From: Spirosomataceae bacterium TFI 002
GTDB lineage: Bacteria > Bacteroidota > Bacteroidia > Cytophagales > Spirosomataceae
DNA length: 64,000 nt
Assembly (NCBI GenBank): GCA_900230115.1
Contig: LT907983.1
Span: forward strand, 992,001 to 1,056,000
Direction of reading: 5' to 3'
Position 1 is the stretch's first letter. Each line of letters begins with the position of its first letter. A program made the translations under genes and the position numbers. Shown piece after piece: positions 43,978 through 50,191 of the stretch. The notes beneath the pieces were generated by a model. The model was not told the origin of the DNA. It searched no databases and worked only from the letters and a program-made list of their open reading frames with translations.

Positions 43978-46497
43978 ATGTTAAGACCATTTCTAGGTAA
44001 TATAGGCCACGGATTTGTAGTATTATCTTTCGTTTTCTCGCTTATAGCGACTTATTTTTTCTTTCTTGACTCCAAAAAAGAAAATAACTTTTTTACTTGG
44101 GCAAAACGTGCGTTTTGGATCCAAAGCATTGCCACAGTAGGAATTTGCGTGAGTTTATTCCTTATTATTTTCAATCATTATTTTGAATACCATTATGCTT
44201 GGGATAATGCTTCTCTAAGCCTACCTCTCGGGTATGCCATATCCTGTTTTTGGCAGGATCAAGAGGGCAGTTTCCTACTATGGATGTTTTGGAATGCTAT
44301 AGTTGGAGTGTTTTTACTTTTTACTTTTTCAAAAGGTAAGAAGAAAGCCTTTGCCGATAACTTACACAGCCCTACAATGGTGGTAATAAGTGCAATTCAA
44401 GCATTTCTTGCCTCTATGATCTTAGGTGTCGTATTTTTTAGCGAATTGAAAATTGGAAGCTCTCCATTTTTACTTCTAAGGCAATCAATGCCAGATCTAC
44501 AATTATGGGCCACTAATCCTGACTTTATACCTAAAGATGGAAATGGTCTAAATCCATTACTTCAAAACTACTGGATGGTTATACACCCTCCTACCCTATT
44601 CCTAGGCTTTAGTTTAACGATGGTGCCTTTCGCTATGGCAATTGCATCGCTTTGGAAGAAGGATTATAAAAGCTGGTTAAAATTAGCTCTACCTTGGTCA
44701 CTTGTAGCAGCAGTTGTGTTGGGTACAGGTATTATCATGGGAGGAGTTTGGGCCTATGAAACCTTGAACTTTGGCGGATATTGGAATTGGGATCCTGTTG
44801 AAAATGCCGTTTATGTTCCTTGGATCATATTAGTGGCTGCTTTTCATACCTTATTTCTAGCCCAAAAGAGCAGTACGGCACTTAAGTATTCATACATACT
44901 TATTATCGCACAATTCATTCTTATTCTTTATTCTACGTTTTTGACTCGAAGCGGTATTTTAGGAAATGCTTCTGTTCACTCTTTTACGGACCTTGGCTTA
45001 TCAGGTCAATTATTAATTTACCTTTTAACTTTTGTTGTTTTGGCGATTGTTTTAATCGCTATAAGATGGAAAGATTTACCTCGAGACCAAAAAGAACTCG
45101 ATACTCACACACCCGACTTTTGGGTTTTCATGGGTGTATTAACTCTCTCTCTGGCAGCTTTTCAAGTTATTTTAACAACTTCAATTCCAGTTTACAACGC
45201 AATTGCAGAAGGCTTAGGGTTTGACCTAAACTGGGCAATGCCTACCGATCCTATTGCTCACTTCACCAGTTTTCAGATGTGGCTATTTATAGTTGCAATT
45301 GCCCTTACTGGTCTTGGACAATATTTCTGGTGGAGAAGGATAACTTCAAAAAAACTAAATGAACTAATAGCACCCTTGATTATTACTCTTCTGGTTTCAT
45401 CTATTGCTATTATTTTGACAAAAATTAATGATTGGAAATATATCATTCTCCTTACAGCTTCGATTTTTGGACTAGTATGTAATTTAAGTATCCTAACTGA
45501 CCTATTTAAGGGTAAATTCAAAGTTGCTGGAGGAGTAATTGCCCATGTTGGTGTAGGTCTAATGTTGCTAGGAATTATGTTTTCGTCAGCCTATGAAAGA
45601 ACTATTTCTATCAACATGACAGGAAATCAAATATTTTCAGACTCCGAAAAAGAAAGTAGAGAAAATGTACTACTTTGGCTCAATCGCCCACTTAAAATGG
45701 GTGACTTCACTTTAGATTATCGTGGGGAATTTGTTGATGTTAGAGGTGTTCCTGGTTACATTGAAAAGAAATATGTAAAACCGATAATTGGAAGTGGTTT
45801 CAAAGGCCTAGCCCTTGCACCTATCACTGACAATAACGATACATTGGTCAATCGCTTCGATACACTAGCTTACGAGGCAGAAAACACCTACTACCAAGTA
45901 GCTTATTCAGACTCCAAAGGAAATGAATTTAACCTGTATCCACGTTTTCAAGTAAACGAAAGCATGGGAAATGTAGCTTCTCCAGACATTAAACAATTTT
46001 GGAATAGAGATATTTACTCACATGTCACATACGTTACTCGTGAACAAGATAAGGAGTGGTCAGCTCCAATGGACTACAATGTGGCATTAAGAGATACATT
46101 TTTCCTAAATGATTATGTAGCTATTTTGGACGACGTTGTGGGAGTTAACGAAATAGATGGTATGGAGCTAAAAGAAGGCGATGCTGCAGCAGTGGCGATC
46201 TTGAGACTTTTAGAGCGTGACGGTGAAAAAATAATGAAACCAACATTTGTGATCAAGGAGGGTCAAGTATGGAGCAAACCAGTGGTTAGTAACGAACTGG
46301 GAGTAAAAGCTCAGCTTTCGCGTATTGACCCTGTTAGTGGACTTTTCACCTTCTCCATAAGTAGAAGTGAAAGAGAATATATCGTCCTAAAAGTAATAGA
46401 AAAACCCCTTATCAATCTACTTTGGTTGGGTATCATTCTACTTATTATTGGAATTACAGTTTCAGCTGTTAGAAGATTTCAAATAGCTTTCAAGTAG
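43978..46497 (+). CDS. cytochrome c biogenesis protein, CcmF/CcsA-type heme lyase
   Basis: Polytopic inner-membrane protein of 839 residues from the ATG at 43978 (MLRPFLGNIGHGFVVLS); the frame continues upstream only to a TTG. About 14-15 membrane segments are visible. The heme-handling WWD region reads FGGYWNWDPVENAVYVPW, and the N-terminal half has SCFWQDQEGSFLLWMFWN, both diagnostic of CcmF. A periplasmic domain of about 270 residues lies near the C-terminus, closed by a last membrane helix (LLWLGIILLIIGITVSAV). It attaches heme to apocytochrome c. Two thioredoxin proteins are divergently transcribed next to it and could keep the apocytochrome cysteines reduced. Confidence 0.93.
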   Translation: MLRPFLGNIGHGFVVLSFVFSLIATYFFFLDSKKENNFFTWAKRAFWIQSIATVGICVSLFLIIFNHYFEYHYAWDNASLSLPLGYAISCFWQDQEGSFLLWMFWNAIVGVFLLFTFSKGKKKAFADNLHSPTMVVISAIQAFLASMILGVVFFSELKIGSSPFLLLRQSMPDLQLWATNPDFIPKDGNGLNPLLQNYWMVIHPPTLFLGFSLTMVPFAMAIASLWKKDYKSWLKLALPWSLVAAVVLGTGIIMGGVWAYETLNFGGYWNWDPVENAVYVPWIILVAAFHTLFLAQKSSTALKYSYILIIAQFILILYSTFLTRSGILGNASVHSFTDLGLSGQLLIYLLTFVVLAIVLIAIRWKDLPRDQKELDTHTPDFWVFMGVLTLSLAAFQVILTTSIPVYNAIAEGLGFDLNWAMPTDPIAHFTSFQMWLFIVAIALTGLGQYFWWRRITSKKLNELIAPLIITLLVSSIAIILTKINDWKYIILLTASIFGLVCNLSILTDLFKGKFKVAGGVIAHVGVGLMLLGIMFSSAYERTISINMTGNQIFSDSEKESRENVLLWLNRPLKMGDFTLDYRGEFVDVRGVPGYIEKKYVKPIIGSGFKGLALAPITDNNDTLVNRFDTLAYEAENTYYQVAYSDSKGNEFNLYPRFQVNESMGNVASPDIKQFWNRDIYSHVTYVTREQDKEWSAPMDYNVALRDTFFLNDYVAILDDVVGVNEIDGMELKEGDAAAVAILRLLERDGEKIMKPTFVIKEGQVWSKPVVSNELGVKAQLSRIDPVSGLFTFSISRSEREYIVLKVIEKPLINLLWLGIILLIIGITVSAVRRFQIAFK

Positions 46498-46520
46498 AGC
46501 TAAATAAAAGCTATTGCAAA

Positions 46521-46551
46521 AAAATGACGTCCACATAATGGGCGTCATTTT
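46521..46551 (+). terminator. intrinsic terminator of the CcmF-type gene
   Basis: A 9-bp stem (aaaatgacg with cgtcatttt) followed by a T-run, 24 bases after the stop codon. Confidence 0.85.
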
Positions 46552-46743
46552 TTTTGAGATTATGATCTATTTGAAATAGATACATTATTAATTATATTTC
46601 TAAGGATTTTCTATTTTAATGTTAATCTAAGTGGAATTAGCCAATCAGTAAAAATGAGCTATATCTTTTCACAGACAATTTCTAACTCATAACGAAAGGG
46701 TTTCTCAGCTCGTAAAAATGAAATTTAAGAGCTTAGTAAAGTA

Positions 46744-47421
46744 TCACTTCCCTGGCAAAGGAGCTCCCACTGCTACAGCACAATCATGGCCAGGCTTCCC
46801 ATGAGCCGGATTTACTTTTAAGTTTGCACCAAAATTCGGGATTGAAGCACCAGCACTAATTGCCTGTGGTTCGGTTTGAATAGTAGTTGAATTAGTAGCA
46901 GCTGTTGTTGTTTTCGGAGTTGATCCGTCCAAAGGAGCACCTACAGCAACTGCACAGTCATGACCTGGTTGACCATGTGCTGGATTAATTTTTAAATTAG
47001 GCGTTAAATTGGGAGTAGAAGCAACTAAGGGTTGAGATTCTGTTGGGACATTTACGGCAGCTGTTGTAGGAACAGATGAAGCTGCTTTGTTTAAAGGGGC
47101 TCCAACAGCCACAGCACAATCATGACCTGGTTGACCATGTGCTGGATTAATCCCAGTTGTACTTGGGCTCAAAAATTGACCAGTCATCGTTGGAGGATAA
47201 TACACCGTTCCGGATGTTTGGTCTACACTTCCTGACGCACTAGTCGTAGGAGGAGGAACAATCACATTACTTGCAGGGACGGTAGTCGTACTACTTTCTA
47301 TTGAGGATGACTGCAAACCATTGTCAGAGTTACAGGCAACCATACCTAAAAATATAAAACTAGATAGTGATAGAGTGCCCTTACGAATTGTCATATTATT
47401 AAGAAATTGTTTCATGATCAT
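46744..47421 (-). CDS. lipoprotein with three HGQPGHDC repeats
   Basis: 225 residues. A lipoprotein signal ends at GMVAC (Cys30 from the first Met; Met10 is an equally good start). The mature protein is Thr/Ser/Pro-rich and disordered, and carries three near-identical 20-residue units, at about 91-110, 144-163 and 203-222, with consensus NPAHGQPGHDCAVAVGAPL. Each unit holds two His, one Asp and one Cys, which could bind metal. Single copies of this motif occur at the ends of other Bacteroidota proteins, as I recall, and have no known function. Spacers are unrelated in sequence and 33-39 residues long. I cannot assign a role; it is probably exposed on the outer membrane or in the periplasm. 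It lies just downstream of the ATP synthase run but beyond its terminator. Confidence 0.75.
   Translation of the reverse strand: MIMKQFLNNMTIRKGTLSLSSFIFLGMVACNSDNGLQSSSIESSTTTVPASNVIVPPPTTSASGSVDQTSGTVYYPPTMTGQFLSPSTTGINPAHGQPGHDCAVAVGAPLNKAASSVPTTAAVNVPTESQPLVASTPNLTPNLKINPAHGQPGHDCAVAVGAPLDGSTPKTTTAATNSTTIQTEPQAISAGASIPNFGANLKVNPAHGKPGHDCAVAVGAPLPGK
46755..47152 (-). repeat. three coding repeats of about 57 bases
   Basis: The three units encoding the NPAHGQPGHDCAVAVGAPL block lie at about 46755-46811, 46934-46990 and 47096-47152. The first two from the protein N-terminus (at 47096 and 46934) are almost identical in DNA, and the last differs by a Gln-to-Lys change and several silent changes. 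This argues for internal duplication with selection on the protein sequence. Confidence 0.85.
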
Positions 47422-47626
47422 ATAAATACAATAATAAAGCCAAGATTTGGATTCTTAAATTTAAGCAAAATTGAGAAGGCATAAAAATATACCAGTTATA
47501 ATGGCTCTACTAAGACTTTATGCAATATTCTGAAAGACATTTTACCGAATTGAAAACAATCGACAAGCCCAAGAGTATAATTGTGATAATTTTAATACAA
47601 TTCTTGACTGGCATAAAAAGAAAAAA

Positions 47627-47643
47627 CCTCCGAAAATCGGAGG
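47627..47643 (-). terminator. intrinsic terminator after atpH
   Basis: A 7-bp GC-rich stem (cctccga with tcggagg, loop of 3). The A-run at 47621-47626 gives the T-tail on the minus strand. It lies about 40 bases past the atpH stop and closes the ATP synthase run. Confidence 0.88.
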
Positions 47644-47681
47644 CCTTTCTCAACTTTATAGCCATGAAAACTAATAATCGT

Positions 47682-48215
47682 CTAAGCTAATTCTAGCTTT
47701 AATTCGTTTAATCTCTTTCTAATTGAGGTGTCTATTTGGGTATCTCCTACCTTTAAAACATATCCTCCAATTAGATTTGCATCTATTTTCTCAACCAGCT
47801 TTACTGTTTTGCCAGTTGCATCTTTCACTATCTTTAAAAACTCACTTCTTTGATCATCTGTAAGTTCTTCTACTGAAATAACTGTCGCAATCTCTATTTT
47901 ATTGAGTTCATTATATAATTTATTAAACTCAATTGCGATTGGATAAATCAGTTTCTCTCTGTTCTTCCTTGTTAAGACGTCGAAGATCGAGAAAGTCACT
48001 TTATTTACATTATTTTTGAAAATTTTATTTAAAATCTTCGATTTATCGTCGTGACGCACGATTGGGTTGGCCATTACAGCCATAAATTCTCTATCCGCTT
48101 TACAAACATCTAGAAAATAAGTCATATCTGCACTGACCTCTTCAACTACTTTTTGCTCAATCGCAAAATCGATAAGTGCTTTGGCATATCTATAGGCTAC
48201 TACTGACTCACTCAT
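47682..48215 (-). CDS. atpH: ATP synthase F1 subunit delta
   Basis: Stator subunit of 177 residues, linking the peripheral stalk b subunit to the F1 head. The N-terminal helical bundle begins VVAYRYAKALIDFAIEQ, and the C-terminal part has the family signature IDANLIGGYVLKVGDTQIDTS (quoted by GGYVLKVGDTQID). Length is normal. It is the last gene of this run: the alpha and gamma genes that commonly follow are missing and a terminator comes instead. The gap to atpF is 36 bases. Confidence 0.96.
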   Translation of the reverse strand: MSESVVAYRYAKALIDFAIEQKVVEEVSADMTYFLDVCKADREFMAVMANPIVRHDDKSKILNKIFKNNVNKVTFSIFDVLTRKNREKLIYPIAIEFNKLYNELNKIEIATVISVEELTDDQRSEFLKIVKDATGKTVKLVEKIDANLIGGYVLKVGDTQIDTSIRKRLNELKLELA

Positions 48216-48251
48216 AATATTCTTTCTAGCTGATAACAGCCAATTTGGATT

Positions 48252-48746
48252 TTAGTTTAAATTCGCTTGACTTATCAAGTCCGATACCAATGTTTGTTGA
48301 GACTTTTTATCAGTTAATTCTTTTCTAATTAACTTCTCAGCAATCGAAATAGATATATCAGCAACTTCCTTACGCAGGTTATCTACCATTATAGTACGCT
48401 CCTGATTCAAAGTCTCACGAGTATCTGCAATGATACGTGCACCTTCTGTCTTCGCAGTTTCTTGTGCTTCAGATATCATTCTATTCGAAGTTTCTCTCGC
48501 TTCAGCCAAAATCTTATCTCTTTCTTTTCTAGCTTCAGCCAATTGATTTTCATTATCAGCTTTCAACTTTGCCATTTCGGCACGAGTTTCTTCTGCCATT
48601 TTAAGAGCAGATTCAATTTCATTTTCTCTATCTGAAAGAGCTGAAAGTATAGGCTTCCATGCAAATTTTCTAAGAATAAGAAAAAGTGAAGTAAAGATCA
48701 ATAACTGCCAAAAAATCAGACCTACTGCTGGGGTTAATAATTCCAT
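48252..48746 (-). CDS. atpF: ATP synthase Fo subunit b
   Basis: Peripheral stalk subunit of 164 residues. One N-terminal membrane segment (about 7-24, GLIFWQLLIFTSLFLILRKF) is followed by a long charged helix with LSDRENEIESALKMAEETRAEM (quoted by its ends) that dimerises as a right-handed coiled coil and binds delta. Standard length and position between c and delta. Confidence 0.96.
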   Translation of the reverse strand: MELLTPAVGLIFWQLLIFTSLFLILRKFAWKPILSALSDRENEIESALKMAEETRAEMAKLKADNENQLAEARKERDKILAEARETSNRMISEAQETAKTEGARIIADTRETLNQERTIMVDNLRKEVADISISIAEKLIRKELTDKKSQQTLVSDLISQANLN

Positions 48747-48832
48747 GATTTATATTTATTCTAAAAGTATTTCAAAAGATAAAGTTTTGTTCTGACACCT
48801 AATGTGAACAGAACAAAACTTTGGGCAAAAAA

Positions 48833-49102
<270 letters not shown>

Positions 49103-49129
49103 TTATATAGTTAAAAAATAAAACACAAA

Positions 49130-50191
49130 TTAATGATCGTGATGCTCTTCTATAGCCGATCCAATATACATAGAGGACAATAAAGTGAAAATGTAAGCTT
49201 GAATAAAAGCTACAATTATCTCAATCATACTCATGAACGTACCAATAACACCAACTCCTGCACCAACACCCCAGCTTTTGAACATGAATATAATTCCAAT
49301 AAAGCTCAAGATGATAATGTGACCTCCTGTAATGTTTGCAAATAAACGAATCGTTAAAGATGCTGGCTTCATAAAAACACCAATAACTTCAATAACCCAA
49401 AAAAGTGGCTTCAACCATCCCGGTACTCCTGGAGGTGCTACTATGTGCATCCAATAGTTCTTATTTGCTTTGATATGAACAATCACAAATGTTATTAAAG
49501 CAAGTGTTAATGTTACTGCAATATTTCCAGACAAGTTTGCTGCACCTGGAGTAAGACCCATCAAGTTGTTTACCAAAATAAAGAAAAACAATGTAAGCAT
49601 ATAAGGAAGGTATCCTTCATACTTAGGTCCAATACTCGGCTTAATCACCTCATCACGAATCGTTAAAATTACAGGTTCAAGAAATGACTGAATTCCAGAT
49701 GGAGCTTTTCCTTTATTCTTTTGGTAGCCTTTACTAACTAAAAGAAATACTACAATTAATATCAAAGCACTTAAAATAAGTGAAGCCACATTCTTTGTAA
49801 TGGAAAAATCCAATGGATGTACACTTTCGTCTACAACCCCAGCTTCATTAACTCTTACAATATGTTCGTGCTGATTTTGATATCCATTATATACTTGCCC
49901 ATGATCTAACTTGCTTGAAGAAAATACCTCAAGACCCCTATCTGCTGTATACAATATAATAGGAAGCGGTATTTTCACACCATGTGCAAACTCCCAACCA
50001 TGCTCATCTAATATGTGATGCATGATCATTCCGCCCATATCGAAAGGTTTCTCATCGTGCAAAGCCTCTACGACATTGCCATGATGTTGGGTAACATGTT
50101 CAGTTTGACCTTCTTTATGCTCCTCCTGAGCAGAAACCGAAACTATGTAAAATACTGATAATGTAAGTGTTAGAAGTAGTCTTTTAATCAT
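49130..50191 (-). CDS. atpB: ATP synthase Fo subunit a
   Basis: Proton-channel subunit of 353 residues. Unlike the E. coli protein it has a cleavable signal peptide (ending VSVSAQ) and a His/Glu-rich periplasmic N-terminal extension of about 110 residues, which is common in Bacteroidota. The membrane part has the essential Arg in KPASLTIRLFANITGG and conserved polar residues in the last helix (FIQAYIFTLLSSMYI). The C-terminus is IGSAIEEHHDH. It follows the AtpI-position gene by 27 bases and precedes atpE by 39. Confidence 0.96.
   Translation of the reverse strand: MIKRLLLTLTLSVFYIVSVSAQEEHKEGQTEHVTQHHGNVVEALHDEKPFDMGGMIMHHILDEHGWEFAHGVKIPLPIILYTADRGLEVFSSSKLDHGQVYNGYQNQHEHIVRVNEAGVVDESVHPLDFSITKNVASLILSALILIVVFLLVSKGYQKNKGKAPSGIQSFLEPVILTIRDEVIKPSIGPKYEGYLPYMLTLFFFILVNNLMGLTPGAANLSGNIAVTLTLALITFVIVHIKANKNYWMHIVAPPGVPGWLKPLFWVIEVIGVFMKPASLTIRLFANITGGHIIILSFIGIIFMFKSWGVGAGVGVIGTFMSMIEIIVAFIQAYIFTLLSSMYIGSAIEEHHDH

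Follow-up and report, generated by a model that had tools for sequence, protein, structure and literature searches.

The window, a stretch of 64,000 nucleotides, carries a gene (46744..47421, minus strand) for a predicted lipoprotein of 225 amino acids that contains three nearly identical His-His-Cys units, and the repeat family to which these units belong is real, selected and apparently undescribed. Based on a comparison of sequences across genomes, we propose that the product may be an outer-envelope lipoprotein that holds soft metal ions, Cu(I) being the likeliest, with each unit acting as a His2Cys site, a reading to which we assign a probability of about 0.5. A metal-binding protein is probable because the His-His-Cys motif is nearly unchanged in relatives and because a metal-uptake receptor is encoded nearby in one family, designated f6 here.

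The lipoprotein gene and its three units

Translation from the ATG start (the ATG codons of residues 3 and 10 are possible alternatives) yields a signal peptide with a lipobox (47332..47421), in which a hydrophobic stretch precedes the sequence MVAC at residues 27 to 30; by sequence pattern this is a lipoprotein whose lipidated residue would be Cys30. A Ser/Thr/Pro-rich stretch leads from the lipobox to unit 1 (residues 92 to 110; 47092..47148) and unit 2 (residues 146 to 164; 46930..46986), which share the sequence NPAHGQPGHDCAVAVGAPL, and to unit 3 (residues 204 to 222; 46756..46812), NPAHGKPGHDCAVAVGAPL, in which Lys replaces Gln (NPAHGKPGH...) and after which the chain ends within three residues. 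The spacers between units 1 and 2 (46987..47091) and between units 2 and 3 (46813..46929) are rich in Thr, Pro, Ala and Ser and contain neither Cys nor His. All of these features lie on the minus strand. The ORF translation, the lipobox and the repeats bear out the first-pass annotation of this DNA, which had predicted a lipoprotein with three near-identical units, and its count of two His, one Asp and one Cys per unit is correct, but the unit is 19 residues long and not 20. Its description of the spacers as Thr/Pro-rich also stands, with Ala and Ser to be added, whereas they are not wholly unrelated as it had claimed, since a short PN...NLK(I/V) stretch can be recognized by eye in the translation ahead of both unit 2 and unit 3.

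At the codon level, units 1 and 2 differ by 7 silent changes and no replacement, and the two pairs that include unit 3 differ by 10 and 11 silent changes with one replacement each. The NG86 estimate of dN is 0 for units 1 and 2 and 0.024 for each pair with unit 3, and dS is 0.76 for units 1 and 2 and not computable (returned as -1) for the others. The earlier proposal that selection acts on the peptide is upheld by these pairs, which differ by silent changes only or by one replacement, and by the invariance of 8 of 20 columns among 153 units. Chance origin of the units is excluded by the internal repetition together with the conservation across other genomes. The gene is present in a single copy: when the 19-mer was searched against the 5.46-Mb genome (one contig; 5,461,465 bases), the three matches obtained were all inside the lipoprotein gene, and the pattern HGxxxHxC was not found outside it in the six frames of the window.

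The lipoprotein gene lies between upstream genes that we take to encode ATP-synthase subunits and, on its other side, a convergently oriented gene presumed to be of cytochrome-c-biogenesis type. Four ORFs at 47682-50191 look, by eye, like the genes of subunits a, c, b and delta, and the series closes with a terminator-like hairpin (47621..47649, minus strand), located after ORF 47682-48215 and upstream of the lipoprotein gene. Because of this hairpin between the two, the lipoprotein gene is probably a separate transcription unit; the hairpin is a consensus match only, one of two terminator-like sites in 46400-47800, where shuffled sequences give a mean of 0.9 (standard deviation, 0.9). The P-loop motifs of the alpha and beta subunits, GDRQTGK and GGAGVGK, are absent from the window in all six frames, and the ATP-synthase operon therefore seems to be split.

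No described family related to the protein by sequence, the SilE-type metal sponge discussed below included, was found in Pfam, NCBIfam or PDB. Pfam gave one match, at an E value of 6.5, and no family at or above its cut-off; NCBIfam gave no match, and the PDB matches of both the protein and the unit profile had E values of 1.7 or worse. Text searches of the open-licence literature found no description of the motif; the matches were a mouse brain glycopeptide paper that shares the six letters HGEPGH and is unrelated (PMC8395275) and a genome paper (PMC10710014). These searches also found no paper that joins a lipoprotein, copper, TonB dependence and an HMA domain in Flavobacterium. AlphaFold run without an alignment returned no usable fold for the whole protein (mean pLDDT, 33.5) and no secondary structure for one unit with its flanks (pLDDT, 60.8).

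Conservation and distribution of the unit

The first homologous loci were collected with the DNA pattern NPxHGxPxHxC, which matched 11 of 200 genomes in the window's own family, one of them being that of the window itself (reversed control, 1 of 200), and 30 of 395 genomes across the phylum (reversed control, 1); about 297 of those 395, by hand count, belong to other classes and gave no match. A profile built from 34 units was then compared with 395 genomes of the class and matched 59 of them at E values of 0.1 or less. The distribution of these matches is two-peaked, with 36 genomes at E values up to 1.3e-6 and the next match at 1.5e-3; matches from 1.5e-3 on were read as noise, so that carriers in the class are counted as 36 of 395. 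The strict DNA pattern misses at least one carrier (G267), which the profile search recovered. Stretches of up to 20 kb were taken from each of 66 genomes, made up of 11 from the window's own family, 27 of the 29 non-window carriers in the phylum sample (G420 and G521 were left out) and 28 further carriers from profile searches. This set spans 14 families and 24 genera of the same class and contains 153 complete units plus a broken one. Adding 12 f6 loci, from 12 of the 37 f6 carriers outside the 66-genome set, brought the total to 181 units. Spread by plasmids or phages was considered and rejected: a tblastn search with one unit gave two plasmid records at an E value of 9, read as chance, and no match in phage records, and viral contigs gave no match to the DNA pattern.

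Eight positions (N1, P2, H4, G5, H9, C11, V15 and G16) are invariant in all 153 complete units of the 66 genomes, and all eight hold in 181 of 181 units in the enlarged set. L19 (151 of 153), P18 (146 of 153) and P7 (143 of 153) are nearly so. To match the search pattern, each gene of the first loci needed at least one unit with N, P, H, G, H and C in place; the pattern set no condition on the remaining units of each gene, on V15 and G16, or on the units found by profile search. Free variation of the His and Cys positions among homologues would have refuted the reading of the first-pass annotation by its own criterion; instead, H4, H9 and C11 are constant throughout, and the profile search of the class returned no intermediate, degenerate units between E values of 1.3e-6 and 1.5e-3.

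Since N1, P2, G5, V15 and G16 vary no more than the His and Cys residues do, the unit amounts to more than its ligands. The equal fixation of these five non-ligand positions is the main weakness of a metal-binding reading of the sequences, and it would suit equally well a serious rival, if on balance a somewhat unlikely one, in which the unit is a recognition motif, two or three copies of which, on a flexible lipid-anchored tether, dock on one conserved envelope partner with His and Cys as contacts. The near-invariance of P7, P18 and L19, the placement of the repeats on low-complexity spacers, which fits multivalent docking, and the variation of gene neighbors among families are all in keeping with such a motif. 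Against it, no constant neighbor presents itself as the partner gene, every complete unit contains a Cys although the rest of the mature chain has few, and the gene context in family f6 is related to metals. If the unit is such a motif, it would be a ready bait for an unidentified conserved envelope protein.

The distribution of Cys is strict. Cys residues occur in the units and in the N-terminal anchor region and are practically absent from the rest of the mature chains: 155 were counted after the anchor region for 153 units, and the extra two proved to be anchor-region residues (L078 and L146). His residues total 317 for the 153 units, 11 of them outside the units. Two units are present in 38 of the 66 proteins, three in 25 (the broken unit counted) and one in 3. 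One Cys per unit and usually two or three units per chain would permit disulfides among the Cys residues or between them and partners, as a device for crosslinking or redox sensing in which the His residues tune the thiol. We consider this improbable, since three of the proteins have a single unit and since disulfides account neither for the two invariant His residues nor for the invariant non-ligand residues N, P, V and G. The three single-unit proteins (L136, L146 and L148; genus g287, family f98) continue after the unit into a longer acidic and Pro-rich tail.

A further regularity concerns the charge beside the Cys. Exactly one of positions 10 and 12 is acidic in 173 of 181 units, neither in 8, of which 5 have Trp at position 8, and both in none. 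Most units combine Arg at position 10 with Asp or Glu at position 12, or Asp at position 10 with Ala, Ser, Asn, Gly or Lys at position 12. Among 104 distinct 19-mers, the numbers with one, no and two flanking acids are 97, 7 and 0, against 60.7, 25.2 and 18.2 expected if the positions were independent, and 97 one-acid 19-mers were reached in none of 20,000 shuffles, a comparison that ignores kinship. Two old unit types could lie behind part of this pattern, but additional pairs such as K-E, L-E, V-E, T-D, D-N and D-G at positions 10 and 12 point to repeated change under constraint.

In one locus (L089:9600-9760, minus strand; genome G505), a TGA codon takes the exact place of the Cys codon in unit 3, and beyond it the reading frame continues for nine more unit-like residues. 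Selenocysteine was considered at this position and rejected, as SelB exceeded its cut-off in 0 of 9 genomes, G505 included, with sub-threshold matches only. An ordinary stop is likelier on these scores, and the TGA probably removes the third unit.

Gene context in family f6 and elsewhere

In the first set of f6 loci, the lipoprotein gene is next to or near a gene for a TonB receptor that carries heavy-metal (HMA) domains at its N-terminus in 8 of 8 cases, and in 8 of 8 a gene for a Cys/His-rich exported protein lies within three genes of it. The receptors at L079:10221-12893 and L077:6589-9261 carry, besides HMA domains that precede the plug, a conserved KAACCNLSESFETN stretch. Pfam cut-offs were passed by HMA and the TonB barrel for the receptor of L077 and by the barrel for that of L078, where a separate small HMA protein adjoins the receptor. 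The Cys/His-rich proteins (L077:9328-9744, L078:13373-13744 and L079:12960-13337), encoded next to the HMA-bearing receptor, have about 120 to 138 residues and end in IWQPPK(I/L)(G/A), and the three gave no match in Pfam or NCBIfam. Gene order differs between f6 genera (L077 versus L078 and L079), so that the pairing of unit and receptor has outlived a rearrangement.

Across 120 f6 genomes, the unit is present in 45 and the receptor in 109. Unit gene and receptor are within 3.1 kb of each other in 36 of the 45 carriers, and within 1.1 kb in 35 of these; in the other 9, which fall in three of the eleven carrier genera, the genes are far apart or on different contigs. Counted by genus (by hand), proximity holds in 8 of 11. 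In f6 genera that lack a receptor nearby, the gene lies beside what we take to be gldB/gldC-like genes (g384: L158, L159 and L167) or secG-like genes (g368: L156, L157 and L166). The unit occurs in 32 of 43 f6 genomes whose receptor aligned to the double-HMA query from its start and in 13 of the remaining 77 (Fisher p = 6e-10, not corrected for kinship). Two-component genes lie upstream in many f6 loci, and a metal-type system was considered for them; the regulator scored best as RprY-like, below the cut-off of that model, rather than as a heavy-metal type, and these genes are thus not evidence for a metal link.

This context is limited to f6, which counts against the metal-binding reading. 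In 58 loci from 13 other families, profile searches of the flanking DNA (at most 10 kb, and less where a contig ended) found no HMA domain, no receptor of the f6 type and no relative of the Cys/His-rich protein, and locus layouts show that the neighbors of the unit gene vary among most families. The 18 non-f6 neighbors scanned with Pfam are mostly housekeeping proteins; they also include, in L135, a TonB-plug receptor of another kind that is divergently transcribed and, in L139, an Omp85 protein. The receptor segment with the KAACCNLSESFETN stretch is itself common, being present in 71 of the 80 non-f6 genomes examined. It occurs in 54 of 60 carriers, 6 lacking it, and in 17 of 20 genomes taken as non-carriers because they gave no match to the strict DNA pattern, by which at least one carrier (G267) was overlooked. 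Since carriers and controls are not separated, receptor presence was rejected as a marker of carriers and is uninformative here. In the window's genome, the segment lies about 4 Mb from the lipoprotein gene in contig coordinates.

The neighbors also bear on a processing role. The alternation of near-identical segments with unrelated spacers is reminiscent of multi-core precursors, and the protein might accordingly be one from which near-identical peptides are cut out and modified or made to carry a covalent cofactor, heme or other. This is highly improbable: the unit sequence is constant over 14 families, the 18 scanned neighbors include no obvious modification enzyme or peptide exporter, and the window protein has no CXXCH heme motif. 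Heme attachment as in a c-type cytochrome was rejected on the same absence of CXXCH from the 225 residues, and the suggestion in the first-pass annotation of a role in heme binding or covalent modification gained no support from the analysis. Its metal-binding suggestion, by comparison, received independent support from gene context in f6 only, and appears strengthened but not proved.

A possible role in metal binding

Working from the repeat, its invariance, the N-terminal anchor signal and the f6 context as read from the sequences, we infer a model of binding, copper identity, loop geometry and transfer direction as follows. The lipidated N-terminal Cys would anchor the protein in the outer envelope, where a flexible spacer chain would carry one to three (usually two or three) 19-residue units. 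His4, His9 and Cys11 of each unit would form one His2Cys site, N1-P2, G5, V15-G16 and P18-L19 may shape the loop, and the single acidic residue beside the Cys would act with the invariant turn-forming residues in shaping the site. A soft metal ion, most likely Cu(I), would in this way be kept outside the cytoplasm. Copper is favored because of the HMA receptor context in f6, while HMA domains also serve metals other than copper. In f6, the lipoprotein would work beside the HMA-bearing TonB-dependent receptor and the small Cys/His-rich exported protein, and it may buffer metal for the uptake system or pass metal to or from the receptor.

A broader version, which we regard as doubtful, would make the unit an undescribed, class-wide metal-binding microdomain, a 19-residue His2Cys loop present in one to three copies on a lipid-anchored tether, that serves as an envelope copper relay or buffer in many Bacteroidota-like bacteria and is dedicated to a TonB/HMA copper-uptake receptor in one family. 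If the metal-binding reading is right, a widespread and unannotated part of envelope metal handling in a large bacterial class would receive a name, and a TonB receptor with metal-binding domains would be tied to a lipoprotein partner. The unit is short enough to be synthesized and tested in days.

Several known systems invite comparison with the proposed metal-binding lipoprotein. The octarepeat of the mammalian prion protein is a copper-binding, PHG-containing repeat on a lipid-anchored chain. The window protein shares with it a Pro-His-Gly core in repeated units and the lipid anchor, but the octarepeat has a single His per repeat and no Cys, and no relationship is claimed. HMA domains of the CopZ-like chaperone type (PF00403) are encoded near the unit gene in f6, both as receptor domains and as a separate small protein; they are folded domains with a CxxC site, whereas the window protein has no CxxC and gave no match to PF00403. 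SilE is a soluble periplasmic protein. It acts as a periplasmic "molecular sponge" for Ag+ (PMC5008109). Proteins of this type bind several metal ions and fold on binding. SilE resembles the window protein in being extracytoplasmic, disordered when metal free, equipped with short His-containing soft-metal motifs and encoded with metal-transport genes, but its motifs combine His with Met, whereas the window protein has one Cys per unit. The window protein differs further in its lipid anchor, its 19-residue unit and the eight invariant positions.

The place of the protein in the envelope seems to be kept while the form of the anchor varies: 63 of the 66 proteins have a lipobox-like pattern ahead of the first unit, and of the remaining three, L069 begins like a plain signal peptide, L078 has a lipobox variant outside the search pattern and L080 begins like a transmembrane segment. 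In Bacteroidota, the surface lipoprotein export signal (LES) that follows the +1 Cys is given as C-X-K-(D/E)2-X, SDDDD or SDDFE (PMC5080379). The mature window protein begins C-N-S-D-N-G, a partial fit that matches none of these consensus forms fully, whereas several f6 relatives begin C-K-K-D-E, in agreement with C-X-K-(D/E)2-X (PMC5080379).
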